Positions 6,001 to 64,000 of a stretch of 64,000 bases of DNA are shown in pieces. Under the pieces are notes generated by a model. That model did not search any database, had not been told where the DNA came from, and saw only the letters and a list, made by a program, of their open reading frames with translations. The position numbers and the translations under genes were made by a program. Position 1 is the stretch's first letter. The number at the start of each line of letters is the position of its first letter. Origin of the DNA: Xestospongia bergquistia (taxonomy: Eukaryota > Porifera > Demospongiae > Haplosclerida > Petrosiidae); NCBI GenBank assembly GCA_963965975.1, contig OZ014416.1, forward strand, positions 4,092,001 through 4,156,000. Reading direction: 5' to 3'.

Positions 6001-9000
6001 TAAAGGACTTTATGGCACTAACTAAATAAACAGCTATTAACAGTTTAGTAAGTTAGTTTGCATTAACGCAATAAAGTCTTTAAGTTAAAGACTTTAGTAG
6101 GTATAGACTATTGAGAGAAGTTTATAAAGTAAACTGCTTAGTCTAAAGGACTTTATGGCACTAATTAAGTAAACAGCTATTAACAGTTTAGTAAGTTAGT
6201 TTGCATTAACGCTCTAAAGTCTTTAAGATAAAGAGTTTAGAAGGTTTAGATTATTGAGAGAAGTTTATAAAGTAAACTGCTTAGTCTAAAGGACTTTATG
6301 GCGCTAACGAAGTAAACAGCTATTAATAGTTTAGTAAGTTAGTTTGCAATAACGCTCTAAAGTCTTTAAGATAAAGACTTTAGAAAGTTTAGACTATTAA
6401 TAGAAGTTTATAAAGTAAACTGCTAAGTCTAAAGGACTTTATGGCACTAACTAAATAAGCAGCTATTAACAGTTTAGTAAGTTCGCTTCCATTAACGCTC
6501 TAAAGTCTTTAAGTTAAAGACTTTAGAAGGTTTAGACTATTGAGAAAAGTTTATAAAGTAAACTGCTCAGTCTAAAGGAATTTATGGCACTAACTAATTA
6601 AACAGCTATTAACAGTTTAGTAAGTTAGTTTGCATTAACGCAATAAAGTCTTTAAGTTAAAGACCTTAGTAGGTATAGACTATTGAGAGAAGTTTATAAA
6701 GTAAACTGCTAAGTCTAAAGGACTTTTTGCTACTAACTACATAAAGAGCTATTAACAGTTTAGTAAGTTAGTTTGCATTAACGCTCTAAAGTCTTTAAGT
6801 TAAAGACTTCAGAAGGTTTAGACAATTCAGAAAAGTTTATAAAGTAAACTGCTCAGTCTAAAGGACTTTATGGCACTAACTAAGTAAACAGCTATTAACA
6901 GTTTAGTAAGTTAGTTTGCATTAACGCTCTAATGTCTTTAAGATAAAGACTTTAGAATGTTTAGGCTATTGAGAGAAGTTTATAAAGTAAACTGTTCAGT
7001 GTAAAGGACTTTATGGCACTAACTAAATAAACAGCTATTAACAGTTTAGTAAGTTAGTTTGCATTAACGCTCTAAAGTCTTTAAGTTAAAGACTTTAGAA
7101 GGTTTAGACTATTAAGAGAAGTTTATTAAGTAAACTGCTTAGTCTAAAGGACTTTATGGCACTAACTAAATAAACAGCTATTAACAGTTTAGTAAGTTAG
7201 TTTGCATTAACGCTCTAAAGTCTTTATGTTAAAGACTTTAGAAGGTTTAGACTATTGAGAGAAGTTTATAAAGTAAACTGCTCACTCTAAAGGACTTTAT
7301 GGCACTAACTAAGTAAACAGCTATTAACAGTTTAGTAAGTTAGTTTGCATTAACGCTCTAAAGTCTTTAAGATAAAGACTTTAGAAGGTTTAGACTATTG
7401 AGAGAATTTTATAAAGTAAACTGCTCAGTCTAAAGGACTTTATGGCACTAACTAAATAAACAGCTATTAACAGTTTAGTAAGTTCGTTTGCATTAACGCT
7501 CTAAAGTCTTTAAGATAAAGACTTTAAAAGGTTTAGAATATTCAGAGGAGTTTACAAAGTAAACTGCTTAGTCTAAAGGACACTATGGCACTAACTAAAT
7601 AAACAGCTATTAACAGTTTAGTAAGTTAGTTTGCATTAACGCTCTAAACTCTTTAAGTTGAAGACTTTAGAAGGTTTAGAGTATTCAGAGAAGTTTATGA
7701 AGTAAACTGCTCAGTCTAAAGGACTTTATGGCACTAACTAAATAAACAGCTATTAACAGTTGAGTAAGTTAGTTTGCATTAACGCAATAAAGTCTTTAAG
7801 TTAAAGACTTTAGAAGGTTTAGACTATTGAGAGAAGTTTGTAAAGTAAAATGCTCAGTCTAAAGGACTTTATGGCAGTAACTAAATTAACAGCTATTAAC
7901 AGTTTAGTAAGTTAGTTTGTATTAACGCTCTAAAGTCTTTAAGTTCAATACTTTAGAAGATTAAGACTATTGAGAGAAGTTTATAAAATAAACTGTTTAG
8001 TCTAAAGGACTTTATGGCACTAACTAAGTAAGCAGCTATTAACAGTTTAGTAAGTTAGTTTGCATTAACGCTATAAAGTGTTTATGTTAAAGACTTCAGA
8101 AGGTTTAGACTATTGAGAGAAGTTTATAAATTAAACTGCTCAGTCTAAAGGACTTTATGGCACTAACTTAATAAACAGCTATTAAGAGTTTAGTAAGTTA
8201 GTTTGCATTAGTGCTCTAAAGTCTTTAAGTTAAAGACTTTAGAAGGCTTAGACTATTGAGAGAGTTTATAAAGTAAACGGCTTAGTCTAAAGGACCTTAA
8301 AGCTCTAACTAAATAAACAGCTATTAACAGTTGGGAAAGTTAGTTTGCATTAACGCTCTAAACTCTTTAAGTTAAAGCCTTTAGAAGGTTTAGACAATTG
8401 CGTGAAGTTTAAAAAGTAAACTGCTTAGTCTAAAGGACTTTATGGCACTAATTAAATAAACAGCTATTAACAGTTTAGTAAGTTTGTTTCCATTAATGCT
8501 CTAAAGTCTTTAAGTTAAAGACTTTAGAAGGTTTAGACTATTCAGAGAAGTTTATAAAGTAAACTGCTTAGTCTAAAGGACTTTATGGCACTAACTAAAT
8601 AAACAGCTATTAACAGTTTAGTAAGTTAGTTTGCATTAACGCTATAAAGTCTTTATGTTAAAGACTTTAGAAGGTTTAGACTATTGAGAGAAGTTTATAA
8701 AGTAAACTGCTCAGTCTAAAGGACTTTATGGCACTAACTAAGTAAACAGCAATTAACAGTTTAGTAAGTTAGTTTGCATTAACGCTCTAAAGTCTTTAAG
8801 ATAAAGACTTTAGAAGGTTTAGACTATTGACAGAAGTTTATAAAGTAAACTGCTCAGTCTAAAGGACTTTATGGCACTAACTAAATAAACAGCTATTAAC
8901 AGTTTAGTAAGTTAGTTTGCATTATCGCAATAAAGGCTTTAAGTTAAAGACTTTAGTAGGTATAGACTATTGAGAGAAGTTTATAAAGTAAACTGCTAAG

Positions 9001-12000
9001 TCTAAAGGACTTTTTGCTACTAACTACATAAAGAGCTATTAACAGTTTAGTAAGTTAGTTTGCATTAACGCTCTAAAGTCTTTAAGTTAAAGACTTCAGA
9101 AGGCTTAGACTATTCAGAAAAGTTTATAAAGTAAACTGCTCAGTCTAAAGGACTTTATGGCACTAACTAATTAAACAGCTATTAACCGTTTAGTAAGTTA
9201 GTTTGCATTAACGCTCTAATGTCTTTAAGATAAAGACTTTAGAATGTTTAGGCTATTGAGAAAAGTTTATAAAGTAAACTGTTCAGTGTAAAGGACTTTA
9301 TGGCACTAACTAAATAAACAGCTATTAACAGTTTAGTAAGTTAGTTTGCATTAACGCTCTAAAGTCTTTAAGTTAAAGACTTTAGAAGGTTTAGACTATT
9401 AAGAGAAGTTTATAAAGTAAACTGCTCAGTCTAAAGGACTTTATGGCACTAACTAAATAAACAGCTATTAACAGTTTAGTAAGTTTGTTTCCATTAACGC
9501 TCTAAAGTCTTTAAGTTAAAGACTTTAGAAGGTTTAGACTATTCAGAGAAGTTTATAAAGTAAACTGCTTAGTCTAAAGGACTTTATGGCACTAACTAAA
9601 TAAACAGCTATTAACAGTTTAGTAAGTTAGTTTGCATTAACGCTATAAAGTCTTTATGTTAAAGACTTTAGAAGGTTTAGACTATTGAGAAAAGTTTATA
9701 AAGTAAACTGCTCAGTCTAAAGGACTTTATGGCACTAACTAACTAAACAGCTATTAACAGTTTAGTAAGTTAGTTTGCATTAACGCAATAATGTCTTTAA
9801 GATAAAGACTTTAGAATGTTTAGGCTATTGAGAGATGTTTATAAAGTAAACTGTTCAGTGTAAAGGACTTTATGGCACTAACTAAATAAACAGCTATTAA
9901 CAGTCTAGTAAATTAGTTTGCATTAACGCTCTAAAGTCTTTAAGTTAAAGACTTTAGAAGGTTTAGACTATTAAGAGAAGTTTATAAAGTAAACTGCTCA
10001 GTCTAAGGGACTTTATGGCACTAACTAAATAAACAGCTATTAACAGTTTAGTATGTTAGTTTGCATTAACGCTCTAAAGTCTTTAAGTTAAAGACGTTAG
10101 AAGGTTTAGACTATTGAGAAAAGTTTATAAAGTAAACTGCTCAGTCTAAAGGACTTTATGGCACTAACTAAATAAACAGCTATTAACAGTTTAGTAAGTT
10201 AGTTTTTATTAATGCTCTAAAGTCTTTAAGTTAAAGACTTTAGAAGGTTTAGACTATTCAGAGAAGTTTATAAAGTAAATTGCTTAGTCTAAGGGACTTT
10301 ATTGCACTAACTAAATAAACAGCTATTAACAGTTTAGTAAGTTAGTTTGCATTAACGCTATAAAGTCTTTAAGTTAAAGACTTTAGAAGGTTTAGACTAT
10401 TGAGAAAAGTTTATAAAGTAAACTGCTCAGTCTAAAGGACTTTATGGCACTAACTAAAAAAACAGCTATTAACAGTTTAGTAAGTTAGTTTGCATTAACC
10501 CAATAAGGTCTTTAAGTTAAAGACTTTAGTAGGTATAGACTATTGAGAGAAGTTTATAAAGTAAACTGCTCAGTCTAAAGGACTTTTTGCTACGAACTAA
10601 ATAAACAGCTATAAACAGTTTAGTAAGTTAGTTTGCATTAATGCTCTAAAGTCTTTAAGTTAAAGACTTTGGAAGGTTTAGACTATTGACAGAAGTTTAT
10701 AAAGTAAACTGCTTAGTCTAAAGGACTTTATGGCACTAACTAAATAAACAGCTATTAACAGTTTAGTAAGTTTGTTTGCATTAACGCTCTAAAGTCTTCA
10801 AGTTAAAGACTTTAGAAGGTTTAGACTATTGAGAGAAGTTTATAAAGTAAACTGCTCAGTCTAAAGGAATTTATGGCACTAACTAAATAAACAGCTATTA
10901 ACAGTTTAGTAAGTTAGTTTGCATTAACGCTCTAAAGTCTTTAAGTTAAAGACTTTAGAAGGTTTATACTGTTGAGAGAAGTTTATAAAGTAAACTGCTC
11001 AGTCTAAAGGACTTTATGGCACTAACTAAGTAAACAGCTATTAACAGTTTAGTAAGTTAGTTTGCATTAACGCTCTAATGTCTTTAAGATAAAGACTTTA
11101 GAAATTTTAGGCTATTGAGTGAAGTTTGTAAAGTAAACTGTTCAGTCTAAAGGACTTTATGGCACTAACTAAATAAACAGCTATTAAAAGTTTAGTAAGT
11201 TAGTTGGCATTAACGCTCTAAAGTCTTTAAGTTAAAGACTTTAGAACGTTTAGACTATTAAGAGAAGTTTAAAAAGTAAACTGCTCAGTCTAAAGGACTT
11301 TATGGCACTAACTAAATAAACAGCTATTAACAGTTTAGTAAGGTAGTTTGCATTAACGCTTTAAAGTCTTTAAGTTAAAGATTTTAGAAGGTTTAGACTA
11401 TTGAGAGAAGATTATAAACTAAACTGCAAAGTATAAAGGACTTTATGGCACTAACTAAATAAACAGCTATTAACAGTTTAGTAAGTTAGTTTGCATTAAC
11501 GCTCTAAAGTCTTTAAGTTAAAGACTTTAGAAGGTTTAGACAATCGAGAGAAGTTTATAAAGTAAACTCCTCAGTCTAAAGGACTTTATGGGACTAACTA
11601 AATAAACAGCTATTAAGAGTTTAGTAAGTTAGTTTGCATTAACGCAATAAGGTCTTTAAGTTTAAGACTTTAGTAGGTATAGACTATTGAGAGAAGTTTA
11701 TAAAGTAAACTGCTCAGTCTAAAGGACTTTTTGCTACTAACTAAATGAACAGCTATAAACAGTTTAGTAAGTTAGTTTGCATTAACGCTCTAAAGTCTTT
11801 AAGTTAAAGACTTTAGAAGGTTTAGACTATTCAGAGAAGTTTATAAAGTAAATTGCTTAGTCTAAAGGACTTCATTGCACTAAGTAAATAAACAGCTATT
11901 AACAGTTTAGTAAGTTAGTTTGCATTAACGCTATAAAGTCTTTATGCTAAAGACTTTAGAAGGTTTAGACTATTGAGAAAAGTTTATAAAGTAAACTGCT

Positions 12001-15000
12001 CAGTCTAAAGGTCTTTATGGCACTAACTAAATAAACAGCTATTAACAGTTTAGTTAGTTTGCATTAACGCAATAAGGTCTTTAAGTTAAAGACTTTAGTA
12101 GGTATAGACTATTGAGAGAAGTTTATAAAGTAAACTGCTCAGTCTAAAGGACTTTTTGCTACGAACTAAATAAACAGCTATAAACAGTTTAGTAAATTAG
12201 TTTGCATTAACGCTCTAAAGTCTTTAAGTTAAAGACTTTAGAAGGTTTAGACTATTGACAGAAGTTTATAAAGTAAACTGCTTAGTCTAAAGGACTTTAT
12301 GGCACTAACTAAATAAACAGCTATTAACAGTTTAGTAAGTTTGTTTGCATTAACGCTCTAAATTCTTCAAGTTAAAGACTTTAGAAGATTTAGACTATTC
12401 AGAGAAGTTTATAAAGTAAGTGCTTAGTCTAAAGGACATTATGGCACTAACTAAATAAACAGCTATTAACAGTTTAGTAAGTTAGTTTGCATTAACGCTC
12501 TAAAGTCTTTAAGTTAAAGACTTTAGAAGGTTTAGACTATTGAGAGAAGTTTATAAAGTAAACTGCTAAGTCTAAAGGACTTTATGGCTCTAACTAAATA
12601 AACAGCCATTAACAGTTTAGTAAGTTAGTTTGCATTAACGCTCTAAAGTCTTTAAGTTAAAGAGTTTAGAAGGTTTAGACTATTGAGAAAAGTTTATAAA
12701 GTAAACTGCTCAGTCTAAAGGACTTTATGGCACTAACTAAATAAACAGCTATTAACAGTTTAGTAAGTTAGTTTGCATTAACGCTCTAAAGTCATCAAGA
12801 TAAAGACTTTAGAAGGTTTAGACTATTGAGAGAAGTTTATAAAGTAAACTGCTCTGTCTAAAGGACTTTATGGCACTAACTAAATAAACAGCTATAAACA
12901 GTTTAGTAAGTTAGTTTGCATTAACGCTCTAAAGTCTTTAAGTTAAAGACTTTAGTAGGTTTAGACAATCGAGAGAAGTTTATAAAGTAAACTGCTCAGT
13001 CTAAAGGACTTTATGGCACTAACTAAGTAAACAGCTATTAACAGTTTAGTAAGTTAGTTTGCATTAACGCTCTAAAGTCTTTAAGTTAAAGACTTTAGAA
13101 GGTTTAGACTATTGAGAGAATTTTATAAAGTAAACTGCTCAGTCTAAAGGACTTTGTGGCACTAACTAAGTAAACAGCTATTAACAGTTTAGTAAGTTAG
13201 TTTGCATTAACGCTCTAAAGTCTTTAAGTTAAAGACTTTAGAAGGTTTAGACTATTGAGAGAAGTTTATAAAGTAAACTGCTCAGTCTAAAGGACTTTAT
13301 GGCACTAACTAAATAAACAGCTATTAACAGTTTAGTAAGTTAGTTTGCATTAACGCTCTAAAGTCTTTAAGTTAAAGACTTTAGAAGGTTTAGACTATTG
13401 AGAGAAGTTTATAAAGTAAACTGCTCAGTCTAAAGGACTTTATGGCACTAACTAAATAAACAGCTATTAACAGTTTAGTAAGTTAGTTTGCATTAACGCT
13501 CTAAAGTCTTTAAGTTAAAGACTGTAGAAGGTTTAGACTATTGAGAGAAGTTTATAAAGTAAACTGCTCAGTCTAAAGGACTTTATGGCACTAACTAAAT
13601 AAACAGCTATTAAAAGTTCGGTAAGTTAGTTTGCATTAACTCAGTCTAAAGGACTTAATGGGATAACTAAGCAAACTTCTATTAACAGTTTAGTAACTTT
13701 GTTTGCATGATGCTCTAAAGTCTTTAAGTTAAAGACTTTAGAAAGTTTAGACTTTTGAGTGAATTTTATAAAGTAAACTGCTCAGTCTAAACAACCTCAT
13801 GCCACTAACTAAATAAACAACTATTAACAGTTCAGTAAGTTAGTTTGGATTAACGATCGAAAGACTTTAAGTTAAAGACTTTAGAAGGTTTAGACTGTTT
13901 AGTGAAGTGTATAAAGTAAACTGCTCAGCCTAAAGGACTTAATGCGACTAACTAAAAATAATGCTACTAACATTTTAGTAAGTTATTTTGCATTAACACA
14001 CTAAAGTCTTTAAGTTAAAGACCTTAGAAGGTTTAGACTGTTGAGTGAATTTTATAAAGTAAACTGCTCAGTATAAAGGTCTTTATGGCACTAACTAAGT
14101 AGACAGCTGTTAAAAGTTTAGTAAGTTAGTTTGCATTAACACTCTAAAGTCTTTAAGTTAAAGACTTTAGAAGGTTTAGACAATTGAGTGAAGATTATAA
14201 AGTAAACTGCTAAGTCTAAAGGACTTTATGGCATAACTAAATAAGCTTCTATTAACATTTTAGTAAGTTAGTTTGTATTAACAGTCTGAAGTCTTTAAGT
14301 TAAGACTTTAGAAGGTTTAGACGATTGAGTTAAGTGTATAAAGTAAGGTGCTCAGTTTAAAGGACTTAATGGGACTAACTAGAGAAACTGCTACTAAAAG
14401 TTTCGTAAGTTTGTTTGCATTAACACTCTAGAGTCTTTAAGTTAAAGAGTTTAGAAGGTTTACACTATTTATTGATGTTGATAGAGTAAACTGCACAGTC
14501 AAAGGGACTTTATGGCACTAATTAAATAAACAGCTATAAACAGTTTAGTAAGTTTTTTTGCATTAACGCTCTAAAGATTTAAATTAAAGACTTTAGAAGG
14601 TTTAGACTATTGAGTGAATTTTATAAAGTACACACTCAATCTAAAGAATTTAATGGGACTAAGTAAGTACACTGCTATTAACAGTTTAGAAAATTTGTTT
14701 GCATTAACGCTCTAAAGTCTTTAAGTTAAAGACTTTAGAAAGTTTAGACTATTGAGTGAATTTTATAAAGTAAACTGCTCAGTCTGAAGGACTTAATGGG
14801 ACTAACTAAACAAACTGCTACTAACAGTTTAGTAAGTGTTTTTGCATTAACGCTCTAAAGTCTTTAAGTTAAACACTTTATAAGGTTTTGGCTATTGACT
14901 GAAGTTTATAAAGTAAAATGTTCACTATAAAGGTCTTGATGGCACTAACTAAATAAACAGCTATTAACAGTTTAGTAAGTTGGTTTGCATTAATGCTCTA

Positions 15001-16363
15001 AAGTCTTTAAGTTAAAGACTTTAGAAGGTTTAGACTATTGAGTGAAGTTTATAAAGTAAACTGCTCGGTATAAAGGTCTTTATGGCACTAACTAAATAAA
15101 CAGCTATTAAATTTTTGGCAAGTTTGTTTGCATTAACGGTCTAAAGTCTTTAAGTTAAAGACTTTAGAAGGTTTAGACTATTGAGTGAAGTTTATAAAGA
15201 AAACTGCTCAGTCTAAAGGACTTAATGGGACTAACTAAATAAACTGCTACTAACATTTTAGTAAGTTTGTTTGCATTAATGCTCTAAAGTGTTTAAGTTA
15301 AAACGTAAAAAGGTTTAGACTATTGAGAGAAGTTTCTAAAGTAAACTGCTGAGTATAAAGGTCTTTATAGCACTAACTAAATAAACAGCTATTAAATGTT
15401 TAGTAAGTTTTTTGCATTAACGCTTTAAAGTCTTTAAGTTAAAGACTTTAAAAGTTTTAGACTTTTGAGTGAAGTTTATAAAAAAAAATGCTCAGTCTAA
15501 AGGACTTAATGGGACTAACTAAACAAACTGCTACTAACAGTTTAGTAAGTTGGTTAACATTAACTGTCGAAAGTCTTTAATTGAAAGACTTTAAAGGTTT
15601 AGACTATTGAGTGAATTTTATAAAGTAATTTGCTAAGTCTAACGGACTTAGTGCAACTAACTAAATAACCTGCAATTAACAGTTTAGTAAGGTTGCTTGC
15701 ATTAAGTGTCTAAAGTCTTTAATTTAAAGACTTTAGAAGGTTTAGAGTATTGAGTGAATTTTATGAAGTAAGTTGCTCCGTCAAAAGGACTAATAGGACT
15801 ATCTCATCAAGCTGCTACTAACAGTTTAGTAAGTTGTTTTGCATTAACGCTCTAAAGTCTTTAATTTAAAGAGTTTAGAAGGTTTAGACTATTGAGGGAA
15901 TTTTATAAAGTAAACTGTTCAGTCTTAAGGACTTAATGGCACTAAATAAATAAACTGCAATGAACAGTTTAGTAAATTGGTTTGCATTAACGCTCTAAAG
16001 CCTTTAATTTAAAGACCTTAGAAGGTGTAGACTATTGAGTGAAGTTTATAAAGTAAACTGCTAGGTCTAATGGTGTTAATGGGACTAACTCAACAAGCTG
16101 CTACTAACAGTTCAGTAAGTTGGTTTGTATTAACGCTTTAAAGTCTTTAATTTAAAGACTTTAGAATGTTTACACTATTGAGTGAAGTTTATAAAGTAAA
16201 CTGCTCAGTCCATAGGACTTAATGGGACTAACTAAATAATCTGCAATTAACAGTTTAGTAAGTTTGTGTGCATTAACTCTCTAAAGTCTTTAATTTAAAA
16301 CTTTATAAGGTTTAGACTATTGAGTGAAATTTATAAAGTAAACTGCTCAGTCTAAAGGACTTA
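1..16363 (+). repeat. Satellite array, 143-bp monomer, direct orientation
   Basis: About 114 head-to-tail monomers. Successive copies of CTGCTCAGTCTAAAGGAC start 143 bp apart (for example 13135 and 13278). Every monomer contains a dyad: CTAAAGTCTTTAA, a central G or T, then its reverse complement, 27 bp in all. Units from 1 to about 13640 are very alike (GAGAGAAG form). Units from about 13640 to 16363 are more divergent (GAGTGAA form, TTAATGGGACTAAC). Higher-order structure is visible: a block with GACAATTGAG followed by AGTTTAAAAAG recurs at 1691, 4822 and 8396. No coding potential. The array continues past the left window edge. The edge-decayed, core-homogenised pattern is typical of satellites; a centromeric or heterochromatic location is inference. 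Confidence 0.97.
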
Positions 16364-17660: not shown

Positions 17661-20329
17661 CCTAGGTTATCCTCTGGAGGAAAAAAGCCAAGGAATAGGC
17701 ACTACAAGCGGTGGAGTGAGACCCAGTTACGTATAGCAGCAAAGGACGTGGCTAAAGGACGATTTACTCTTAGAAAAGCTGCTGAAATGTATAATGTGCC
17801 AAAGTCAAGATTATGGGACAGAGTGTCTGGTAATGTCTCTTTTGGTGCTCACTGTGGACCCCCTCGATACTTAAATGACATTGAAGAAGAAGAACTAGTA
17901 ACATTTTTGGTAGGTTCAGCTAAAATTGGCTTCGCTCGGACAAAGGAACAAGTTCTTTGTATTGTTAGAGCAGCACTAGCAAAGAAACGTCAATGTGAAG
18001 TTGAAGATGTCAATGTCATTACTGGTTGGTGGGGCTCATTTGTGAAGCGGCATCCAAAACTACGATTAAGATATGGATCCAAATTAGCATATCGTAGAGC
18101 TATTGCAGCTAACCCAGATGTCATAAATCGATATTTTGACTTGCTTGAAGAAACATTGAAGTCTAATAATTTGCTTGAATGACCAATGCTGATTTTTAAC
18201 TGTGATGAGAGCGGGTTCCCATTGGAACATAAACCTGGCAAAATAATTGGAGTACAAGGTCAGAGAGATATTTCCTGTATTACTAGTGGTGATAAAGCCC
18301 AAATTACTGTTTTGTCAGCATGCAGTGCTTCTGGTTACCTTTTGCCTCCGATGATAATTTTTGATCGGAAAAAACTTAAGCCCAATTTCACAAAAGGAGA
18401 AATCTCAGGTACTGCATAAGGGGTGTCTAAAAATGGATGGATAGATTCCGAATTGTTTCAGGAATGGTTTACTAATCACTTCTTACTTCACATCCCTCCA
18501 CAGCGACCCATCTTGTTACTCCTGGATGGACATTCTTCACATTACCAACCTCAATTGATCAGGACAGCTGCTGCAAATCAGATCATCTTATTTTGCTTGC
18601 CACCTCATACAACTCATTTGTGTCAACCATTGGACAGGTCATGTTTTAGCCCCTTTAAAAGGGAATACAATAATGAGTGTCATCTCTACATGTCCTGTAA
18701 TCCTGGGAAAGCTGTTACTAGATTTAATTTCACCGAAACGTTTAGTCGAGCCTGGACAAAGGCGATGACACCAGCTAATATTGTTGCTGGGTTTAGATCC
18801 ACTGGTATATACCCCCTCAACTGGTATGCAGTATTACGTTACTTGCAACTTGAAGAGGATGGGAAAATGGATATGATAACCTCCAAGATGAGACTGTTTC
18901 TTCCTCTGTATAGCCCAGCTAAATCTCATCCTCATACCTGTATTACTTCCGATAGTGAAAGCATTGATTATTATGAGAAAGACACTTGTAGTGAAGACAG
19001 TACCTGTGGTTACTATGGTAACTTTTCTGAAGACGAAGATTACATTACAAAAGTTCAGCCATCTACTCTTCATGATTTTCTTACTTTACCTCAGCTACCA
19101 AGTAATGAGAAAAAGACAAACCACAGTGCTCGTGTTTTAACAAGTTCTGAAAATCTTCAGTTGATAAGAGAAAAAGAAATGAAGAAAGCAGATGAATTAA
19201 AAGCTAAAGATCTTAGAAAGCAACAGCGAGAAAAGAAGGCAATGGAACGAGAACTGAAAAAGAAGGAGGTAGAGGAGAGAAAGCTTAAAAGAGCAGTTGA
19301 AAAAGCCGAGAAAGAGAGACAAAAGAAAGAAAAAAAACAAAGTGAACAGAGTACATCAAAATTTGATTTTACAGAAGAAAGCACAGTCGGTTTTCTAGGA
19401 AGTATGAGAATGGTTATGATCTACCTGACATCAGATATGAAAAATGGAAAAAAATATTTCATCCTGAAGAATTATCTTTAGATGCTACAGCATGTAAATC
19501 CAGTGATGGAGACATCAGTCTCAGTGAAGTAGATGAGAATAGTAAGTGATACAGCCTGAGGTTAATTATACTTTGAATTTATGGCTTGCTATTTTAGAAA
19601 GTGCACTAGAACAGTCACCAAAAGTTCTCAAATTTCCAGTATGTGTAATGTATATATATATTTTAGTATTTTTGAGTTAATTATCCTTGTTACAGGGAGG
19701 AAGAGATGTACCAGAAGTACTAGCAAGAGAAGTGAAGAAGAGATAGGACTCTATGAATATGACAAGAATGGACTCAGTGATAATGGTATGTGACATTATA
19801 TTATAATTAACCCTTTAATAGTGGCTTGCCATTTTAGAAACTACACTAGAGCAGTCAAAGACATTACCTAAAAATTCTCAAATTTCCAGTATGTGTAATG
19901 TATATATATTGAAGTATTTTAAAGTTAATTATCTTTGTTACAGGGAGGAAGAGATGTACCAAAAGTACTAGCAAGAGAAGTTAAAAAAAGATAAGACTCA
20001 GTGAATATGACAAGAATGGACTCAGTGATAATGGTATGTGACATTATACTATAATTAACCCTTTAATAGTGGCTTGCCATTTTAGAAACTACACTAGAGC
20101 AGTCAAAGAATAACCTGACAACCAGTATGAAAATATTCACAATATAATAATACAATTCATGTATTTCATTACAGAAAAACTATCAGCATGTTCTAATAAT
20201 TTATGTTTTCACACTAAAGCGACTAATTGGGTGGAATGTGAAAAATGTTTCCAGTGGTACCACATGGTATGTGTTGGGATCAAGAAAGAAAAATCTCTAA
20301 ATTTTGTTTGTTTTATGTGTGACATATAA
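17661..20329 (+). pseudogene. pogo/Tigger-like transposase with C-terminal PHD-type finger (degenerate)
   Basis: DDE-superfamily transposase of the pogo/Tigger/Jerky type. A likely exon starts after a splice acceptor (TTTAATAG, ends 17660) and encodes a Psq-like helix-turn-helix (FTLRKAAEMYNVPKSRLWDR), a CENP-B-type second HTH region (about 17880-18060), then the catalytic core: first Asp in FNCDESGFPL (about 18200), second in LLLLDGHSSHY (about 18520), third probably in QPLDRSCFSPFKREY (about 18630). A basic Lys/Glu/Arg coiled coil follows (about 19170-19350). Damage: in-frame stops at 18180-18182 (TGA) and 18417-18419 (TAA, replacing a probable Tyr), and a frameshift near 19395, after which YDLPDIRYEKW continues in another frame. 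A donor after 19541, a 90-nt exon 19696-19785 and a last exon 20175-20329 join in consistent phase 1. The last exon has a Cys4-His-Cys3 pattern (VECEKCFQWYH, then VCFMC) and a stop at 20327-20329. Inactive as it stands. Confidence 0.88.
19575..20100 (+). repeat. Tandem duplication of intron-exon-intron segment inside the transposase gene
   Basis: A segment of about 248 bp is duplicated in tandem, with a partial third copy from about 20065. Each full copy contains a 90-nt exon with the same acceptor (TTACAG) and donor (GGTATGTG): 19696-19785 and 19944-20033. The first copy is open and encodes a basic stretch (RRKRCTRSTSKRSEEEIG). The second has a TAA in the same frame (AGA AGT TAA), so a message that includes it would be truncated before the PHD-type finger. 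Confidence 0.85.
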
Positions 20330-20860
20330 TAATTAACTACTAGACTTTTTGTAGTAAAATTATTTTTTCATGCACAGTGAATTTGAATAATTAATAAACA
20401 GTATTTGTGATTGTCAAATTTGAGTTAATAAATATCAAGAACTTATCACCTACTTTAGAAAAGAACTTCTCTTAAATGTCCGTTTATTCGTCCATGAGTT
20501 CATGTTTTCATAGAGATGTATATTTAGAACTGTACGTAGAAATTTCTCCAAATTTTGACAGTTAATTCTTTACATATTATATACTGTTCAAAAGCAGAGA
20601 TAACGTTCAAGCTATAATTGTTATCAAGATATGGTCATCGTTCAAATCTACATAAGAATGTCCGTTTTATCATGATCTCAAGTGTACAGGATATATGCTT
20701 GTAAATTGTGCAAAAAGATTTCTTTTTCAGTATATTCTTTGCAATAACTATATGATGGATTGGGGCACTCGAAGCTGGTGTCGAAAGTCAGCTTCGAATG
20801 CTCTGTTTATTTAAAAACAGTAAAAACACCAGAGTGTCCGATCATTGAGCCACGCCTCTA

Positions 20861-21445
20861 ATGGGACTAACTAAATAAACTGCAATTAACAGTTTAGTAA
20901 GTTGGTTTGCATTAATGCTCTAAAGTCTTTAAGTTGAAGACTTTAGAAGGTTTAGACTATTGAGTGAAGTTTATAAAGTAAACTGCACATTCTAAAGGAC
21001 TTAATGTGACTAACTAAATAAAGTGCAATTTACAGTTTAGTAAGTTGGTTTGCTTTAACGCTTTAAAGTCTTTACTTTTAAGACTTTAGAAGGTTTAGAC
21101 TATTGCGTGAAGATTATAAAGTAAATTGTTCAGTCTAAAGGACTTAATGGGACTAACTAAAGAAACTGCTATTAACAGTTTAGTAAGTTGGTTTGCATTA
21201 AGGGTCTAAAGTCTTTAATTTAAAGACTTTAGAAGGTTTAGACTATTGAGTGAAGTTTATAAAGTAAACTGCTCAGTCTAAAAGAGTTAACGTTACTAAC
21301 TAAATAAACTGCAATTAACATTTTAGTAAGTTGGTTTGAATTAACGCTCTAAAGTCTTTAATTTAAAGACTTTAGAAGGTTTAGACTATTGAGTGAAGTT
21401 TATAAAGTAAACTGCTCAGTCTAAAGGATTTAATGGTACTAACTA
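20861..21445 (+). repeat. Satellite array continues, direct orientation
   Basis: About four monomers of the divergent (GAGTGAAG, TTAATGGGACTAAC) subfamily, directly continuing the array after the pogo-like insertion. The dyad is kept with an A/T centre (CTAAAGTCTTTAA, T, reverse complement). Confidence 0.95.
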
Positions 21446-22404: not shown

Positions 22405-24175
22405 TACTTTTTAAAGTAGTCTAAACCTTCTAAAGTCTTTAAATTAAAGACTTTAGAGCGTTAATGGAAAGAAACTTAATAAACTGTTAATGGCAGTTTA
22501 TTTAGTCAGTCCCTTTAAGTCCTTTAGTCTGAGCAGTTTACTTTATAAAGTTAACTCTACAGTCTCAACCTTCTAAAGTCATTGAATTAAAAACTTTAGA
22601 AGGTTAATGAAACAAAGTTAATAAGCTTTTAATGGCAGTTTATTTACTTAGTCCCTTTAAGTCCCTTAGTCTATGCAGTTTATTTTATAAACTAAACTCA
22701 ATAGTCGAAACCTTATAAAGTCTTTAAATTAAAGACTTTAGAGCGTTAATGCAAACAAACTTAATAAACTGTTACACACCAACTTAGTAAACTGTTAAAT
22801 GCAGCTTATTTAGTTGGTCCCTTTAAGTCCTTTAGTCTGAACAGATTACTTTTGAAAGTTCACTCAATAGTCTAAACCTTCTAAAGTTTTTAAATTAAAG
22901 ACTTTAGTGCTTAAATACAAACCAACTTAATAAACCGTTAATTGATGTTTATTTAGTTAGTCCCTTTCAGTCCTTTAGTCTGAGCAGTTTCCTTTTTAAA
23001 GTACACCCAATAGTCTAAACCTTCTAAAGTCTTTAAATTAAAGACTTTAAAGCGTTAATGCAAACAAACTTAATAAACTGTTAATGGTAGTTTATTTAGT
23101 TAGTCGTTTTAAGGCCTTTAGTCTCAGCAGTTTATTTTATAACCTTAAGTCAATAGTCTAAACTTCTAAAGTATTTAAATTAAAGACATTAGAGCGTTAT
23201 TGGAAACAAACTTGATAAAATGTTAATTCCAGTTTATTTAGTTAGTCCCTTTAAGTCTTTTATTTTGAGCAGTTTACTTTATAAAATTCACTCTATAATC
23301 TAAACCTTCTAAAGTCTTTAAATTAAAGACTTTAGAGCATTAATGCAAACAAACTTAATAAACTGTTAATGGCAGTTTATTTAGTTAGTCGGTTTAAGTC
23401 CTTTAGTCTTTGCAGTTTACTTAATAAACTGAAATCAATAGCCTAACCCTCTTAAAGTCTTTAAATTAAAGACTTGAATGTTTTAATACACACCAACTTA
23501 GTAAACAATTAATTGCAGCTTATTTGGTTGGTCCCTTTAACTCCTTTAGTCTGAACAGATTACTTTAGAAAGTTCACTCAATAGTCTAAACCTTCTAAAG
23601 TCTTTAAATTAAAGACTTTAGAGCATTAATGCAAACAAACTCGACAAACTGTTAATGGCAGTTTACTTAGTTAGTCCCTTTAAGTCCTTCAGTCTGAGCA
23701 GTTTACTTTTTAAAATTTACTCAACAGTCTAAACCTTCTAAAGTCTTTAATTTAAAGATTTAAAATTGTTATTGCAAACAAACTTAATAAACTGTTAATG
23801 GCAGTTTACTTAGTTAGTCCCTTTAAGTCCTTTAGTCTGAGCAGTTTACTATTTGAAATTTACTCAACAGTCTAAGCCTTCTGAAGTCTTTAAATTAAAG
23901 ACTTAGACTGTTAATGCAAACAAAGTTAATAAGCTGTTAATGGCAGTTTATTTACTTAGTCCCTTTAAGTCCCTTAGTCTCAGCAGTTTATTTTATAAAC
24001 TAAACTCAATAGTCTAAACCTTCTAAAGTCTTTAAAATAAAGACTTTAGAGCATTAATGCGAAGAAACTAAATATATTGTTAATGGCAGTTTATTTATTT
24101 AGTCCCTTTAAGTCCTTTAGTCCTAGCAATTTACTTTATAAAGTTAACTCAATAAAATGCAAAGTGCTTAGACTA
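22405..24175 (-). repeat. Satellite array, inverted orientation
   Basis: About 12 monomers of the same satellite in reverse complement (AGTCTAAACCTTCTAAAGTC, GCGTTAATGCAAACAAAC, GTCCCTTTAAGTCCTTTAG). Spacing is mostly 143 bp (dyads centred near 22893 and 23036). One unit is lengthened near 22760-22815 by a local duplication of AACTTAATAAACTGTTA. All dyads have an A/T centre. The CCCTTTAAG form differs slightly from the direct array. Confidence 0.95.
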
Positions 24176-38135: not shown

Positions 38136-40392
38136 CCCTTTACCGACCAAGGTTGCAGATTTGCAACTTTTTGGAACATGCACGAAACGACCAAGGTTGC
38201 ATATTTGCAACTTTAATACCAAGCGCTGAAGAAGGAATGCACTCAGTCCGAAATCCTCATTAATGTCTATGGAACGAAAATAAGATTTATCAATAAAATG
38301 ACCTTAGTTTTATTAAGAATTGCAATCAACCTCGTCGTAATTGAGCGCAATATTTATACGCATATAATTTCATCAAACAGCTGGCACACCCAGCCATAAA
38401 TTAGTTCTCAGCTGCCACACCCAGCCATAAATTTAGCTCTCAGCAGTAATTAGCCATGAATTACAGAGCAGAAGATATTGTTGAAATGATTGAAAACGAA
38501 TGGGAAATTGGTGGTGAGGTTATTTGTGAGTATAGTGACGATGATTTTGACGTAGAAGAGGAAGAAGAGGTTGTTGTTATATAGTATAATATATAATAGT
38601 TATTATTGTATATATAATATGTATAATAATGTGTAAGCAGTAACAATATTATTGCATTATAATTAGAAAAACAAACTAAACACTAAGTACCTTTCATTCC
38701 ATTTTCTTTTACACAGAATGGACACCAACGAAAATCTGGAAAGGTAAGATCAAAAGAAAGAATTATTATAACCATGTCTACTGCTTCTGTTATTATACCA
38801 ACACTCCAAATAATTCTTTGATGCTTGTCTTTTCTAATTCTATAGTTGTGATGCTATGGAGATTGATGAACCATTTGAATTTGAGTCAGGTGAATCCTTT
38901 TTGAGTCAACTAAAACTGCCCTTACTACTGACAGGCCTACTACTGTCCTTCCCTGTACTGTTCCTTGTGAACCTACAGTTCCCCTCTCTCATACCCTACT
39001 TGGTATCTTCCATTTACTTTTTACTCCTGCTCTAATCAATATGATTGCTGAGCAAACTAATGTATACGCTCGAGAAGTGCTATCAACTGATGCCTATGAG
39101 AGATTTGACCAAGTAACACCGCTTGAAATTCAAGCGTATTTTGGATTCATGATTCTAATGGGAATCAATCAATTACCATGCCTTTATCATTACTGGAAAT
39201 TAGATCCAACTTACTATTACTCCCCAGTAGCAGACAGGATATCTCTGAGACGATTCTAGGAAATCTCTCGGTTTCTCCATTTCACGCAGAATGAATCCTA
39301 TTCAGTTCAGCGAACAGATCCTAGCTATGATCGTCTTTGGAAAATCCGACCGGTGATAACTTCCATATCAGAGAGGTTTTTGGAGATATATAATCCTCAC
39401 AGTGCCAGCTCAATTGATGAGGCCATGATCCCCTTCAATTGAAGATCCTCTCTCAAGCAATATCTTCCCAAAAAACCTACAAAGAGAGGGATAAAAGTCT
39501 GGATGAGAGCATATGCTATAAATGGCTATGTTTCTCAATTTCAGGTGTACCTTGGCAAAGTGGGAGGCAGGTCGGAAACACATATACATGAACGGGTTGT
39601 GAAAGATCTAACCAGGAATCATGTTGGCAAACACTATACAGTGTACTGCGATAACTTTTTCACCAGTGTACAGCTCTTCAATGACCTTCTAAAGGACTCG
39701 ATCTATGCATGCGGCAGCATTTGATGAAATCGAGTAGGCTATCCTGAAGAATTTAAGCCTTTTCTTAAGAAGGGACTACCAGAGAGGGGAGATTACAAGA
39801 CAATTGAAAAAGAAAATTGCATTTTCTCATTGTGGCAAGACAACAAAACAGTAAGTGTTCTCTCTACCAACTGCAGAAATGAAGAAGGCACAGTAACCAG
39901 AAAACAAAAGGATGGCACAAGAAAAACTTTCACCTGCCCCTTGAATGTTATTGACTACAACAAGTATATGGGAGGGGTTGATTGCAATGACCAGCTACGA
40001 CACTACTACTGTGTACGACTGAAAAGCCATAAATTCTACAAATACATCTTTTGGTTTTTATTTGAACTCACTTTGGCATCCTTCACAGGTATGTACCATC
40101 AACAGGGCATGTATACCATCAATACGTTGACTTCAGGTCAGAGTTGGCAAAACAGCTAATTGGGAATTATAACGGTCGAAAAGTTAGAGGTCGCCCTTCC
40201 TCTGCTATTCATCCCTCAGTACCAACTCTACACTTCCCAATGAAGGCAGCAAAGCGAAGCAAATGCTCTCATTGCTACAGGAAGGGAAAACAATTGAAGT
40301 GGACACAGTGGGAATGCCAAATGTGCAAAAAAAACCTATGCCACACAGGAAAACCAGATAGTGACTGTTTCCTAGCATTTCACAATTATTAG
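38136..40392 (+). mobile_element. piggyBac-family transposon (copy 2), left end defined
   Basis: The left end is TTAA (38132-38135) followed by CCCTTTACCGACCAAGG. Two palindromic subterminal motifs follow: GGTTGCAGATTTGCAACTTT and AGGTTGCATATTTGCAACTT. A nearly complete transposase lies inside. I cannot find the right terminal repeat; the element probably extends into 40393-40904. Confidence 0.85.
38456..40392 (+). pseudogene. piggyBac transposase, nearly full length, with stops and a frameshift
   Basis: A likely start ATG at 38456 opens an acidic N-terminus (MNYRAEDIVEMIENEWEIGG, ending EEEEE). Small exons are likely at about 38717-38743 and 38846-38889. The main body begins near 38935 (PTTVLPCTVPCEPTVPLSHT) and continues through ALINMIAEQTNVYAREVL and YFGFMILMGINQLP. 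The DDD catalytic triad is visible: SIDEAMIPF (about 39415), YCDNFFTS (about 39650) and YMGGVDCNDQLRHYY (about 39970). A C-terminal Cys-rich finger (CSHCYRKGK, then WECQMCKKNLC, then a final C) ends at TAG 40390-40392. Breaks: TAG at 39257-39259, TGA near 39440, tandem TGA TGA at 39722-39727, and a frameshift near 40140-40160. Conservation is high, so inactivation looks fairly recent. The stops could also be checked for assembly error. Confidence 0.92.
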
Positions 40393-55294: not shown

Positions 55295-55448
55295 TTAACC
55301 CTTTGACGCACGCGGATGCAAAATTGCATCCACCCGGGCAGTTCGAACTCGGGCGCGGATGCAAATTTGCATCCATCACTGTGAACACCTTTCAAGCAAC
55401 TTATTCTTTTGTAAAACGCGAACTAATCTTGTCAAAGCATCATTACTG

Positions 55449-56935
55449 TATTCTATCTAACTGGCAATGGCTCAATCTAACAGAAGAAGCGAGCGCTTAC
55501 CCCCTCATTCCGAGTTTTTTGATCGAGTACATTGATGGTATTCCTAGCGAGAATTAGGATGATGATTTGATGGCTGCGTGGACAATCCTTTAATCCTCAA
55601 TGATGGAGAAGCAGAAGCAACCAGTTCTTTTCAGAGCTATTCCACCAGACATAGCCCCACCCAATTAAGATAATGAGCATTCCATCAGCTACAATATTAG
55701 TGATACTGATGGAGGCAACACCAGCTCCCTCCATTCCATTCGTCTATCCCATGCACTCACTTTCTACTAAGCCTACACCTACTTTAGCTCAAATGTTCTC
55801 AGCAACTACACCTATCAGTACTGTTACTCCTGAGCAACTACTTATAAGTCCTATCAATCCTTGTCATCGACAACAAGACCAAACACCTCTTACTTGTAAA
55901 CCTGATAGGTACTTATATAATACATGGTTATTACACAGAAATTGTAAATAATAATAATCTTTTACAGTACATGCATTTACTGCTGCACCAGGCATCACTG
56001 ATAACACCATGCGCACACCATTGGCGTTTTTCAATCAGTTCTTTACTTCTAAAGTGAAAGATCTCATTTATACTGCGACAGTCCAATTTGCTGACAAGAG
56101 CTTGCATCATCCGAGGAATACCTGGATATGCATCGTCATGCACGTGGTAATGAGTGGAGAAGAAACCCTATGGACAGAAGTGAAGTCAATCCTTTCTTGG
56201 CAATCATTATAACAATGGGTGTTGTTGGTTATCCAACTTTGAGGTAATTATATAAAAAGGCTAATTTAATTGTATTCATTCTCTGGTAATTAATTCATTG
56301 TCTGGTAATAATGTTCATTGTATTTTAATAATATTATAAATCATCACCAATCATTATCAGAGAAGGAATATTGTTACCAAAGAATATGAATATGAAAGCT
56401 TTATTATAAAGTACAGGTTATTAGCTTTATTAGCTAAACAACTATGAATTTTATTAGCTCTTTTCTAATAAATTTTAGGCATTTGTAATTAGAAGTACAT
56501 ATAGTATACATAATTAGATCTTACTGGAGTATGAAGTGGTCATTTTACAACGAGTCATTCACAGCAATTATGTCTGGTAGAAGATTCGAGTTATTAATGA
56601 AGTACTTTCATTTAAATGATTCAACTAAAATGCCAGAACGAGGTAGCACCAACTATGATAAGTTGTACAAGATCCATCCTCTACTTGACCTTATCGTTAC
56701 AGCGTTTAAATGAGCCTACACACCAGAAAAAAATATATCAGTGGACGAGAGTATTATAGGATTCATAGGGAGGCTTAGTTGGATTCAATATATGGCAAAA
56801 AGGCCTACTACGTAGGGGATCAAAGTCTGGGTAGCTGCACGATGTAAGATATGCAAAACATCTTTACATGTACATGAATGTTTTGAGATTTACCATACTA
56901 AAATTCACTACGATCAACCCTTACTCAATATTCAG
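55449..56935 (+). pseudogene. piggyBac transposase with internal deletion (copy 3)
   Basis: Pieces in order: a possible start (MAQSNRRSERLPPHSEFF, near 55467) followed by a frameshift; a Thr/Pro-rich segment (55673-55940); and, after an acceptor-like TTTTACAG, FTAAPGITDNTMRTPLAFFN (about 55977) and VKDLIYTATVQFADKS. Then a probable intron (from about 56245), KWSFYNESFTAIMSGRRFEL (about 56531), the first catalytic Asp in ISVDESIIGFIGRLSW (about 56740), a stop (TAG, near 56815), GIKVWVAARCKICKTSLHVH and CFEIYHT. The C-terminal Cys finger directly follows the first-Asp region, so the segment with the second and third catalytic Asp is deleted. Non-autonomous, although its ends look mobilisable. 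Confidence 0.85.
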
Positions 56936-60795: not shown

Positions 60796-60911
60796 CTTGG
60801 CTGATTTTGTACTGTCCAGGAGTTTGTCCCTGCTCACCCACTCTATTGACATTCCTCAGGTACTAGAAAACCACGCCTTATTAAATATTTGTGGTTTCAA
60901 GTGTTTTGATA

Positions 60912-61015: not shown

Positions 61016-61431
61016 TCTTTCGATTTAGCTAATATAATTATTATAAATGATAGCTAATTAAATCCTTTCTAAACAGTTTGTTTACTAATTTTTTTAAAAA
61101 TCACTTTTCATATTTTCTTTAAAAAAATTTTTTTAGCATAACCTTGTTAGTATAAACAATAATCAAGAAACTAGCACTGCAGTTACTGGTCTCCAGGAAC
61201 GTTTGTCCTTAATTTCTTACACTAGATTGTTTTGCATACAAATTTAAAAAACATTAGGTTATTATAAACATTTACATGAATTTTATTACCGAGTTAAAAA
61301 TAGTGACAAGCTTCACATTCTTATTTGCAAATATAAAATCATAATGACTTGTAATATACAAGGTGACAACATCATTCAATGTGACTTCTTAATATACATC
61401 ATTACAATGGTTCACAAAAAATGGACTCAAT

Positions 61432-61735
61432 AGCCAGCAATAAGGGGAAATGTACTAAAATGAACAAATGGCCTTGTTGCTGGGTGGGAAAGACACACCC
61501 ATATCAAAACAACTGACGATAGTATTTGTACTAACCTGACACACTTGAATATCATATCGTCGTTCACATTCAAAGTCTCAAAAGCCAGCAATAAGAGGAA
61601 ATGTACTAAAAAATGAACAAATGGCCTTATTGCTGGGTGGGAAAGACACACCCATATCAAAACAACTGACGATAGTATTTGTACTAACCTGACACACTTG
61701 AATATCATATCGTCGTTCACATTCATAGCACTGGA
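61432..61735 (-). repeat. 151-bp tandem duplication with exon-like block on the minus strand
   Basis: AGCCAGCAATAAG starts at 61432 and again at 61583, with almost identical copies. On the minus strand each copy ends a block TGAACGACGATATGATATTC, then AAGTGTGTCAG, with a donor-like GTTAGT. The rightmost copy continues upstream into an open segment encoding SLVRSKAQLQCYECERRYDI. It may be a duplicated small exon of an unrecognised minus-strand gene, but no wider gene model could be built. Confidence 0.75.
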
Positions 61736-61817
61736 GTTGTGCTTTAGACCTAACAAGGCTTTTGAAAATCAAACCAGCAACCTATGTAGGATAAACTGTG
61801 TCCTCCAGTTATTGCAT

Positions 61818-62330
61818 GTAACACCCCTGGCAAAACATCTGTGTGGAAATTAGAAACCCCAAACTTTGTTGAAGCATTGATGAATTATTTTAATAGGTAT
61901 ACCACAAGCAAAATTAACACCAGTACAGAAAGAATACTTAAACATTGAGTGTGCAGTAGAAGATAACGTTGTTAATTCACAGATGATAACAGTACTCATT
62001 TATTTCTAGGCAATATGATATAATATATGTAATTTAATAGACATTGATGACATCAACACACATAGATTTTGGTGGCCAGAATGATGTAATAGAAGGAATA
62101 GAATTACTTGATGATCCCTTACTGTTCAATCAATGGAGGTAATAGAGATTTAAGAAATATACAACTGTAATCAAGTAAGACGTTTGTCTAATTAACAGAA
62201 ACTGTTTAATATGTATACAATCACTGAGAAACAATGTCCTATCTGCAAGGAGGTCTGTTATAGTGTGTGTCGTTTATATTAACAATTAGATAGATGTTGG
62301 AGAAGAGTACACAAAAATACTACTAATTTC
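61818..62330 (+). other. Possible upstream exons of the USP-Ulp1 gene
   Basis: Candidate exons bounded by splice-like signals: 62041-62138 (acceptor TTTAATAG, donor GTAATA; encodes HIDFGGQNDVIEGIELLDDP) and 62199-62252 (acceptor TTAACAG; encodes KLFNMYTITEKQCPICKE). The CPIC knuckle in the second resembles the first Cys pair of the USP finger region. The phases of the two candidates do not agree (98 nt then 54 nt), so at least one boundary is wrong. No USP Cys box (N-x-G-x-T-C) was recognised upstream. Low confidence. Confidence 0.3.
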
Positions 62331-62559
62331 AGTAGTGGACATAAAGAAGACCGCATATCAGAATTGTGGTGGAAGAAAATATCTTGTTAATCAGATGAAT
62401 CATCCCATCATTTGTAAGCTGTTTATTGTGGACAATAATGTCATAATAAAGCCTACAATGCATACCTTGCAATAAACGTCTAATGACTGTTAGCACAAAA
62501 GTTGCTTCATTACCTGACGTACAGATAATAGGCATTTCTCGAAACACACATTCAAGTAA

Positions 62560-63366
62560 AAAATCAAACAAGCCATTGTTGCTACAAGAGTAAGATGCAG
62601 GCAATGTAATCCATCTGATATTATATCTGATAGGTCAATTACAATTGAAAGTACTACCAGACATGATTACACCTCAAGAACTTACAGATTACTTGGAAAA
62701 GCTGTTAGTACTGATGACAATGAAAGTATCCTTTTAATCTTCCTTCCATTTAGGTTCATCATGGACATCCATCCAACATCTGTAGATACAGGTCACTGTA
62801 AGTTATTATACAGCTATAAGATACCTACATTAAAACAAACACAATAGACACTGCATTAGTGAAAACACCAGGTGGAGAATGGATTGAATATGATGACAAT
62901 AATGTAAATACTAACTACGATTACAACAGAAATATAGATTACATTTCAGTGAGTAAAGATAATGAAAACAATGCATCATTATGATTACCTCTTAGAGAAA
63001 TGTATGTCTAGCTATATACAAGTCTGATGAGTCTGAGGTTAGCATGCAATTATTGTATATCACATAATACATATTGTAATTCATTTTGCTAACTATAGAC
63101 TGTATTAAAAGTGATTGATTGTCCACCAATTTTAACATGGAGCGAAGTCAGTCTGTTATTAAAAATGTGCATACTTTACTGTTATAATATTTCTATCAGA
63201 GTCCACTTGCTGTTGTTAATGAAGACAAGGAAATAGTAAGTGCATTGCTAGCAAAGAATTTATTCTATATATTTGAATAAAGGACTGGAAAGAGATTAAG
63301 GCACCATACAATACTTTACAGCCAGGAGTGTGGCTAACTGCAAAAGCAAACAGTGTATATATTATG

Positions 63367-63412
<46 letters not shown>

Positions 63413-63999
63413 CAGTATATATAATAGTATATACTTGTGTAGGTGATAATGAATTACTTAATATTGTTAGCAAAAGATGTAAGTCAAATCATTTTACATG
63501 CACGTCACAGAAATTGTTAAAACAAGAGAAACATAGCCATTGTCAACTCCACATTCCTTCCATTATTAAGAGCAAGAGGCTTTAGTGGTGTTATAAAATA
63601 TGTAAGGCTTTTACAATTTTAACAAAGTATGAAAAGTAATAAATTATAGGGCAAAAATCTGTTAGAGAAAGACATGATCATATTTCCTATTCATTGTCCG
63701 CAACATTGGATTCTCATCGTCAGTGCCTTAATCAACACAATATATGTTTGGGATACATTACATAGGTTGTTGATGTAAATGATAAGGTCATATATGAAGT
63801 TGATTCATATCATAATAGTCGGCCTCATTTAATAAATAGCATATGGTAAGAAATTATTACATAAGATAACATTTAAAAAAAAACATAGGCTATATTTGTG
63901 TACATTGTCAAAGTTTAAACTATCCGTTAGTAAGTGGAGATACTATCATTCCAAAGTACATTACACATCCGCAAATGTACTTTTATGGTACTTATATAC
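62560..63999 (+). CDS. USP-type deubiquitinase end fused to Ulp1/SENP-like protease domain (partial)
   Basis: Multi-exon model with short introns, running off the right edge. Segments: before 62560 unknown; up to 62703 (TYRLLGKA); 62754-62797 (VHHGHP, then VDTGH); 62848-62948 (TALVKTPGGEWIEYDDNNV); 62996-63037 (NVCLAIYKSDESE); 63099-63146; 63200-63235; 63283-63354 (LQPGVWLTAKANS); 63443-63478 (VIMNYLILLAKD); 63527-63601 (IAIVNSTFLPLLRARGFSGV); 63650-63718 (MIIFPIHCPQHWILI); 63766-63845 (VVDVNDKVIYEVDSYHNSRP); 63889 onward (KWRYYHSK). The third to fifth blocks match the USP (peptidase C19) His box YRLxGxxxHxG...GHYTAxVK..GxWxxxDD and the closing strand. From 63283 the pattern matches Ulp1 (C48): LxPGxWLT, IxxYLxLL, SFFxxxL, IFIPIHxxxHWxL and IYxxDS, giving catalytic His (QHW) and Asp (VDS); the Cys box lies beyond the window. 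Seven consecutive exons (62996-63718) are exact multiples of three in phase 0. Odd: an extra 4 bp (CATCCATCC) in 62754-62797 breaks the frame, so this may be a pseudogene or carry a sequence error. Confidence 0.7.
63371..63410. repeat. (TA)n microsatellite within a predicted intron
   Basis: A TA run within the 88-nt intron 63355-63442 of the Ulp1-like gene. It explains why this intron is longer than its neighbours. Confidence 0.85.
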
Positions 64000-64000
64000 A

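Follow-up and report, generated by a model that had tools for sequence, protein, structure and literature searches.

A probable decayed DNA transposon with USP-like and Ulp1-like peptidase domains in the genome of the sponge Xestospongia bergquistia

The occurrence of a USP-like (C19) peptidase domain followed, on the same strand and exon by exon, by an Ulp1/SENP-like (C48) peptidase domain raises the question of whether a single sponge gene encodes a protein that cleaves two ubiquitin-like modifiers, or whether both domains belong to a large transposon. Both possibilities had been put forward in a preliminary description of the locus, which lies at the right edge of the window, that is, the whole stretch of 64,000 nucleotides that was analysed (C6:4092001-4156000). 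We undertook the analysis on a genome of 146.5 Mb in 21 contigs and included the 19 kb of contig adjoining the window. The results make it very probable that the USP/Ulp1 stretch belonged to a DNA transposon and is now a decayed copy with internal deletions. In fuller copies of the element, a USP and an Ulp1 peptidase are encoded together with a PHD finger and a transposase-like ORF of DDE type. The locus has the appearance of a mobile element rather than that of a host gene.

All motifs quoted in the preliminary description are present in the window, with TYRLLGKA beginning at 62680, VHHGHP at 62754, DTGHY at 62785 and TALVKTPGGEWIEYD at 62850 in the USP part, and LQPGVWLT at 63316, IFPIHCPQHWILI at 63680 and IYEVDS at 63790 in the Ulp1 part. 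The USP part comprises nine probable exons on the forward strand, which together hold a Cys-box exon, a QQDA-like box, two CxxC pairs, the His box and a WIEYDD strand. Exon U1 (61749-61842, with a GT donor) bears the putative Cys box (NLCRINCVLQLL), which the preliminary description had proposed to look for upstream. Its letters are PNKAFENQTSNLCRINCVLQLLHVTPLAKHL in the window, where NLCRINC is readable, and NLCWINCVLQLL in the C12, C10 and C2b copies of the element found elsewhere in the genome. The identity of this box is suggested by its likeness to the motif, as by profile it is weak: the C12 peptide scored 14.4 bits (E 0.029) with UCH (PF00443), below the cut-off, and the window U1 peptide had no Pfam match. 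The remaining exons are U2 (61897-61991, with AG/GT borders in all four copies compared), U3 (62041-62138, QQDA-like box, IDFGGQNDVIEGIELL), U4 (62199-62252, the first CxxC of the finger, CPIC), U5 (62290-62331), the probable exon U6 (62453-62555, second CxxC, CIPCNKRLMTVSTKVASLPDVQIIGISRN), U7 (62629-62702, TYRLLGK), U8 (62754-62797, His box, VHHG...DTGH) and U9 (62848-62948, TALVKTPGGEWIEYDDNNV..., bordered by caatag and gtgagt). The left borders of U6 and U7 are uncertain, and U6 alone gave no Pfam match.

Assignment of these exons to the ubiquitin-specific proteases is based on the exon chain of the C10 copy, U9 included, which scored 36.1 bits with UCH (gathering cut-off 23.9), the match covering the His-box half only (profile positions 186-236 of 254). 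The same model gave 19.7 bits on the window letters, which is below the cut-off and was obtained with a query that bridged a frame break. In a comparison with PDB at E values up to 1, 20 of the 21 chains matched by the USP chain were ubiquitin hydrolases, the remaining one being named SAKe6FR. The continuous exon chain that had been described is not what the window contains: U3 is out of frame relative to its own donor, and VHHGHP and DTGHY of U8 lie in different frames, so that the Cys box and His box are not both readable in frame in this copy. U8 is in a single frame in the C12, C10 and C2b copies. Nor are the exons all in phase 0, as had been claimed, the His-box intron being in phase 1 and the successive Ulp1 introns in phases 1, 1, 0 and 0.

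Between the two domains lie linking exons on the forward strand (63099-63235), one of which starts at 63099 (TVLKVIDCPPILTWSEV) and has an uncertain right end with no certain donor, and another spans 63200-63235 (SPLAVVNEDKEI); an uninterrupted reading frame through both domains is consequently unsupported. The Ulp1 part is better preserved in the window. Its five forward-strand exons, a (63283-63352, DWKEIKAPYNTLQPGVWLT), b (63443-63478, DNELLNIVSKR), c (63537-63601, SIVNSTFLPLLRARGFSGVIKY), d (63650-63718, GKNLLEKDMIIFPIHCPQHWILI, catalytic His region) and e (63766-63846, VVDVNDKVIYEVDSYHNSRPHLINSIW, catalytic Asp region), have AG/GT borders and join in one frame (63283-63846) to give 107 residues that include the His and Asp regions. 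This chain scored 33.7 bits with Peptidase_C48 (PF02902; gathering cut-off 20.7; matched residues 39-100), and all 14 of its PDB matches at E values up to 1 were SENP1, SENP2, SENP3, SENP5 or Ulp1. These values place the reported succession of USP-like and Ulp1-like domains beyond chance, and of the two profile searches that had been proposed, that with C48 gave a match on the window's own exons and that with UCH on the exons of the C10 copy. An earlier join that took VSALINTIYVWDTLH as coding was rejected, as these letters are intronic in the GT-AG chain and the score was 22.1 rather than 33.7 bits. A scan of IMG/VR with the Ulp1 chain returned six pattern matches, of which none is a relative.

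The catalytic cysteine of the Ulp1 domain (Q...DCG box), which had been suggested as something to look for beyond the window's end, is absent from this copy and from all of the 20 window-type copies compared. It does occur in the family, as five of nine other copies checked retain the box, which reads SNACDCGVF in L037, L038, L039 and L053 and is altered in L052; it is absent in L040-L043. The Cys-box exon of another copy scored 22.2 bits with Peptidase_C48 against the cut-off of 20.7. The suggestion that one polypeptide cleaves two modifiers therefore fails for the window copy, for which dual cleavage is impossible because the Ulp1 cysteine is missing and the USP frames are broken.

Comparison with copies elsewhere showed that both domains lie within a repeated unit with defined ends. 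In the window copy the unit runs on the forward strand from 60840 to the window's end at 64000 and on to approximately 65702 (C6:4152840-4157702), a size of 4.86 kb, both ends having been placed by a script that compared dispersed copies. The terminal repeats that had been suggested around the gene were found: the sequence ACTCT(A/G)TTGAAGTTAGCAGCACATTC is on both ends of the element in inverted orientation. The left repeat of the window copy (60840-60855, forward strand) is a shortened remnant in which ACTCTATTG is followed directly by ACATTCCTCAGG, versus the longer ACTCTATTGAAGTTAGCAGCACATTC of other copies. A shared flank of at least 9 bp, corresponding to a target-site duplication, was present at the ends of five of 12 copies examined, the window copy being among the 12. 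Four of these (C4a, C4d, C2c and C2a) were identified by script, the left flank of C4a being offset by two bases and the right repeat of C2c being shortened, and the fifth, C1a, was read by eye because the script had misplaced its shortened left end. An exact 9-bp duplication is absent from the other seven, which include the window copy with its shortened left repeat; the flanks of C12 match by eye at seven of nine positions, and six copies have no duplication at their ends. None of 132 mismatched end pairs used as a control had a common 9-mer. Terminal inverted repeats together with a duplication of fixed length are characters of a DNA transposon, and duplications of 9 bp are known for Mutator elements in general. 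Near the left end, and thus upstream of the genes, is a minisatellite (61426-61725, forward strand) with a 153-bp unit in two copies (TRF 153 bp x 2.0, 96%), of which the C5 and C12 copies have more units.

The content of the ancestral element is indicated by the C10 (~11.5 kb by end matches), C12 (~8.25 kb) and C2b copies, which retain what the window copy has lost at 61728/61729 and 64017/64018. At the first junction (61728-61729) the coding region for the PHD finger and the transposase is gone, C12 having ~2 kb and C10 ~4.3 kb more at this point. In C10 and C2b a PHD finger, a transposase-like ORF, the USP and the Ulp1 follow one another on one strand, and C12, which has no PHD finger, has the other three in the same strand and order; beyond the Ulp1 the fuller copies have a further stretch to which no domain could be assigned. 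In the C10 copy the PHD finger, which immediately precedes the transposase ORF, scored 32.9 bits (PF00628; cut-off 24), its nearest PDB chains are PHF2, CXXC1 and PHF8, and the genome has three close sites and one diverged site of this finger. None of the three copies compared is intact, as lesions in the USP exons are found in C12 at U3 and U9, in C10 at U1 and in C2b at U9.

The transposase-like ORF has 245 residues in C12 and contains LDATG, IIIDRS 77 residues on and later GTIEAWN, which we take by analogy to provide the D, D and E of a DDE-type enzyme, the E being a candidate. It had no match in Pfam, the MULE model included, its places are absent among the PF10551 matches listed for the genome, and hhalign comparison with six MULE loci of the same genome was insignificant and about as poor as with pogo and piggyBac controls. 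The weak matches of its profile in PDB were aminopeptidases (E 0.28 or worse). As there is no profile match, the label of putative transposase derives from the location of the ORF in an element with terminal repeats and target-site duplications and from its DDE-like pattern. Relatives of the ORF at L047 and L048 in this genome are degraded. Elsewhere, partial relatives of it occur at C2:4443238-4477863, mostly 7.2 kb apart, and MULE-model matches form a run at C11:2746697-2768474 with a spacing of ~7 kb. Taken together, the terminal repeats, the 9-bp duplications, the recurrence at no fewer than 40 places and the PHD finger and transposase-like ORF of the fuller copies bear out the large-transposon reading of the locus.

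The window copy is a dead element. Most of both protease domains is retained. The transposase, the PHD finger and the exon for the Ulp1 cysteine are deleted, the frame is broken at U3 and U8 of the USP part, and the U8 letters of the window are common to 19 of 20 window-type copies. Among ten copies of the family, variable sites numbered 50 of 286, 48 of 286 and 49 of 285 at the first, second and third codon positions, respectively, and introns varied at nearly the same frequency (270 of 1422). This even spread over codon positions indicates that decay has been mostly unconstrained. Sites common to at least two copies numbered 7, 4 and 11 at codon positions 1, 2 and 3 and 57 in introns, and the lean to the third position could be, at most, a faint trace of older constraint.

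Decayed as it is, the window-type element is abundant. A 2001-base query matched at least 40 places with identities of 94-100%, and 33 of these matches span the full query; the count is a lower bound as 40 of 86 candidates were scored, and more diverged copies exist beyond this set. The surroundings of these copies account for their number. Arrays of a 143-bp satellite occupy window positions 1-16363, 20859-21445 and 22418-24154 and resume from 71444 on (L009 8444-10000), flanking an island of roughly 47-55 kb. A query taken from this island ~30 kb before the element matched at least 40 places at 95-100% identity when 40 of 75 candidates were scored. These places are distributed over eight contigs, with one block per contig and a spacing mostly of 110-185 kb (extremes 65 and 220 kb). 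Among the matches listed on C5, C6, C7, C11 and C15, the element query identified 27 places, 26 of which are inside these blocks, also spaced mostly 110-185 kb apart except for a pair on C6 separated by 4 kb and two gaps of 316 kb. The blocks on C13, C4 and C10 each hold several island copies and one listed full or partial match to the window-type element, and thus some units are without the element. When 19 other copies were compared with the window copy, 16 remained identical or nearly so past the element's edge into the adjoining sequence, which is different or absent in L013, L016 and L017; the near-identity is therefore a result of array expansion, not selection. The window-type copies were thus multiplied by expansion of large tandem units built on the 143-bp satellite, inside which they recur at no fewer than 26 places. 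The satellite arrays look centromeric, and the recurrence of the island suggests very long higher-order centromeric units. An element expanded in this way could pass for a conserved gene family.

Other mobile sequences are present in the element and elsewhere in the window. Nine of 20 copies (L018, L020, L021, L023-L026, L029 and L030) have a piggyBac-like end (CCCTTTGACGC; CCCTTTGACGCACGCGG) at a TTAA inside the element, at about window coordinate 64853 and so past the window's end, and the other 11 have an uninterrupted site; a similar end is at window position 55299. DDE_Tnp_1_7 transposase fragments, presumably of piggyBac type, are at 38894-40156 and 56489-56713. Between satellite blocks, window positions 17661-19478 contain Psq HTH and DDE_1 ORFs of pogo/Tigger type, the family to which CENP-B belongs.

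It is unlikely that the proteases represent a USP-Ulp1 fusion gene of the host that was captured by a transposon or a satellite array and whose mobile parts are unrelated neighbours. The domains are intron-rich as in host genes, and there are 117 UCH matches in this genome, many of them elsewhere. However, among the matches listed all places with both domains are members of this one repeat family, with no donor gene apart from it, and PHD finger, transposase, USP and Ulp1 have a common strand and order in C10 and C2b, as do the last three in C12. The five other Peptidase_C48 matches are on C9 (two), C12, C3 and C14, those on C3 and C14 appearing Ginger-like. Capture of a host gene by a Helitron or other element was raised by the shared boundaries of the copies and dropped on the evidence of the inverted repeats and 9-bp duplications.

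A working dual-specificity protease gene, expressed from satellite-array copies as a centromere-linked family, is highly improbable. While the copies are many and near-identical and Ulp1 exons a-e are in frame, the loss of the Ulp1 Cys box from every window-type copy, the broken His box that nearly all of them share, the about equal variability of the codon positions and the identity that passes the edge of the element all argue against it, and the multicopy element with its terminal repeats and duplications, together with the broken window copies, led us to discard a dual-protease host gene. A juxtaposition of unrelated protease fragments by chance or misassembly has as little to recommend it, for despite the repetitive and rearranged nature of the region, USP and Ulp1 occur in the same order on C2, C5, C10 and C12, where flanks and lesions differ from copy to copy. 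The decayed transposon thus remains the preferred reading, and the locus serves as a warning that a pair of motifs in an exon chain may stem from a transposon.

What the two proteases contributed to the element can be considered for its autonomous ancestor. By analogy with other DNA transposons, the element would have been moved in cut-and-paste fashion by its own transposase, with the PHD finger helping to tether it to marked chromatin; PHF2, CXXC1 and PHF8 are readers of methylated H3K4, and kinship to them leads us to guess at active chromatin as the target. The two proteases would have removed ubiquitin and SUMO from the transposase, or from proteins of host silencing or repair, letting insertion and expression proceed. 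The present copy does none of these things, and any movement of it would depend on proteins from elsewhere. Somewhat short of an even chance, in our estimation, is the broader proposal that a MULE/Rehavkus-like lineage combined a PHD reader, a DDE transposase, a USP and a SUMO protease in a four-part protein, or set of proteins, armed against ubiquitin- and SUMO-dependent host control. If true, the presence of both proteases beside a PHD reader would strengthen the case that modifier removal acts against host silencing or repair, and would offer a natural two-enzyme system for testing modifier removal by transposons.

The components of this element each have precedents. Transposons with an Ulp1, a PHD or a C19 domain have been described, and some combine Ulp1 with PHD (PMC2836005), and the accessible parts of two studies show that transposons of several classes acquired ubiquitin- or SUMO-removing proteases (PMC2836005, PMC9741609). 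Transposon-borne Ulp1, OTU and VTD domains have been proposed to serve in repair, in protection of transposition proteins or in overcoming limits on transposition (PMC2836005; discussed in PMC9741609), and the role suggested above for USP and Ulp1 may be an extension of these ideas. USP and Ulp1 in one element were not found in the literature covered, most subscription papers and Repbase reports lying outside its scope. When the transposase was scanned with Pfam in two pieces, neither gave an integrase match, whereas Ginger1 would have a Gypsy-type integrase with GPY/F. Open ORFs in which a PHD-like finger comes after Ulp1, the opposite order from the present element, are found at L033 (C3:5485093) and L034 (C14:4716446), and L033, which adjoins an integrase-like ORF, is presumably a Ginger1-like element, its C48 domain having been assigned by profile and the others by eye and by analogy. 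Published Ginger1 elements carry Ulp1 or OTU, and one of them carries PHD; they likewise have Ulp1 and PHD within a single DNA transposon, but have a Gypsy-integrase-type transposase, and USP is not mentioned in the part of the source available (PMC2836005). A Trichomonas protein joins peptidase C19 to a transposase, as here, but the transposase is of another type (transposase_11) and the same part of the source does not mention Ulp1 for it (PMC2836005). Helitrons with VTD and OTU deubiquitinases parallel our element in having two modifier proteases per mobile element, but they are rolling-circle elements and the proteases are of other families (PMC9741609, in the sections available). The Mutator-like elements with Ulp1 of hydra, lancelet and plants also combine a DDE transposon with C48, and some of them have PHD in the published alignment; the available text does not mention USP for them (PMC2836005). 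The transposase described here is unmatched by the Pfam MULE model. Rehavkus, the sister group of MULE, shares the 9-bp target-site duplication (tabulated for several groups), a PHD finger, found beside the transposase in our C10 copy, a minisatellite close to one of the ends and terminal inverted repeats that are short (PMC6446971). In Rehavkus, for which arthropods and annelids are given as hosts, the minisatellite precedes the 3' repeat, whereas here it is 5' of the genes, and the Rehavkus table row names neither USP nor Ulp1 (PMC6446971). As target-site duplication length, PHD finger and minisatellite resemble those of Rehavkus while kinship of the transposase is unproven, we describe the element as MULE/Rehavkus-like rather than as a member of either group.
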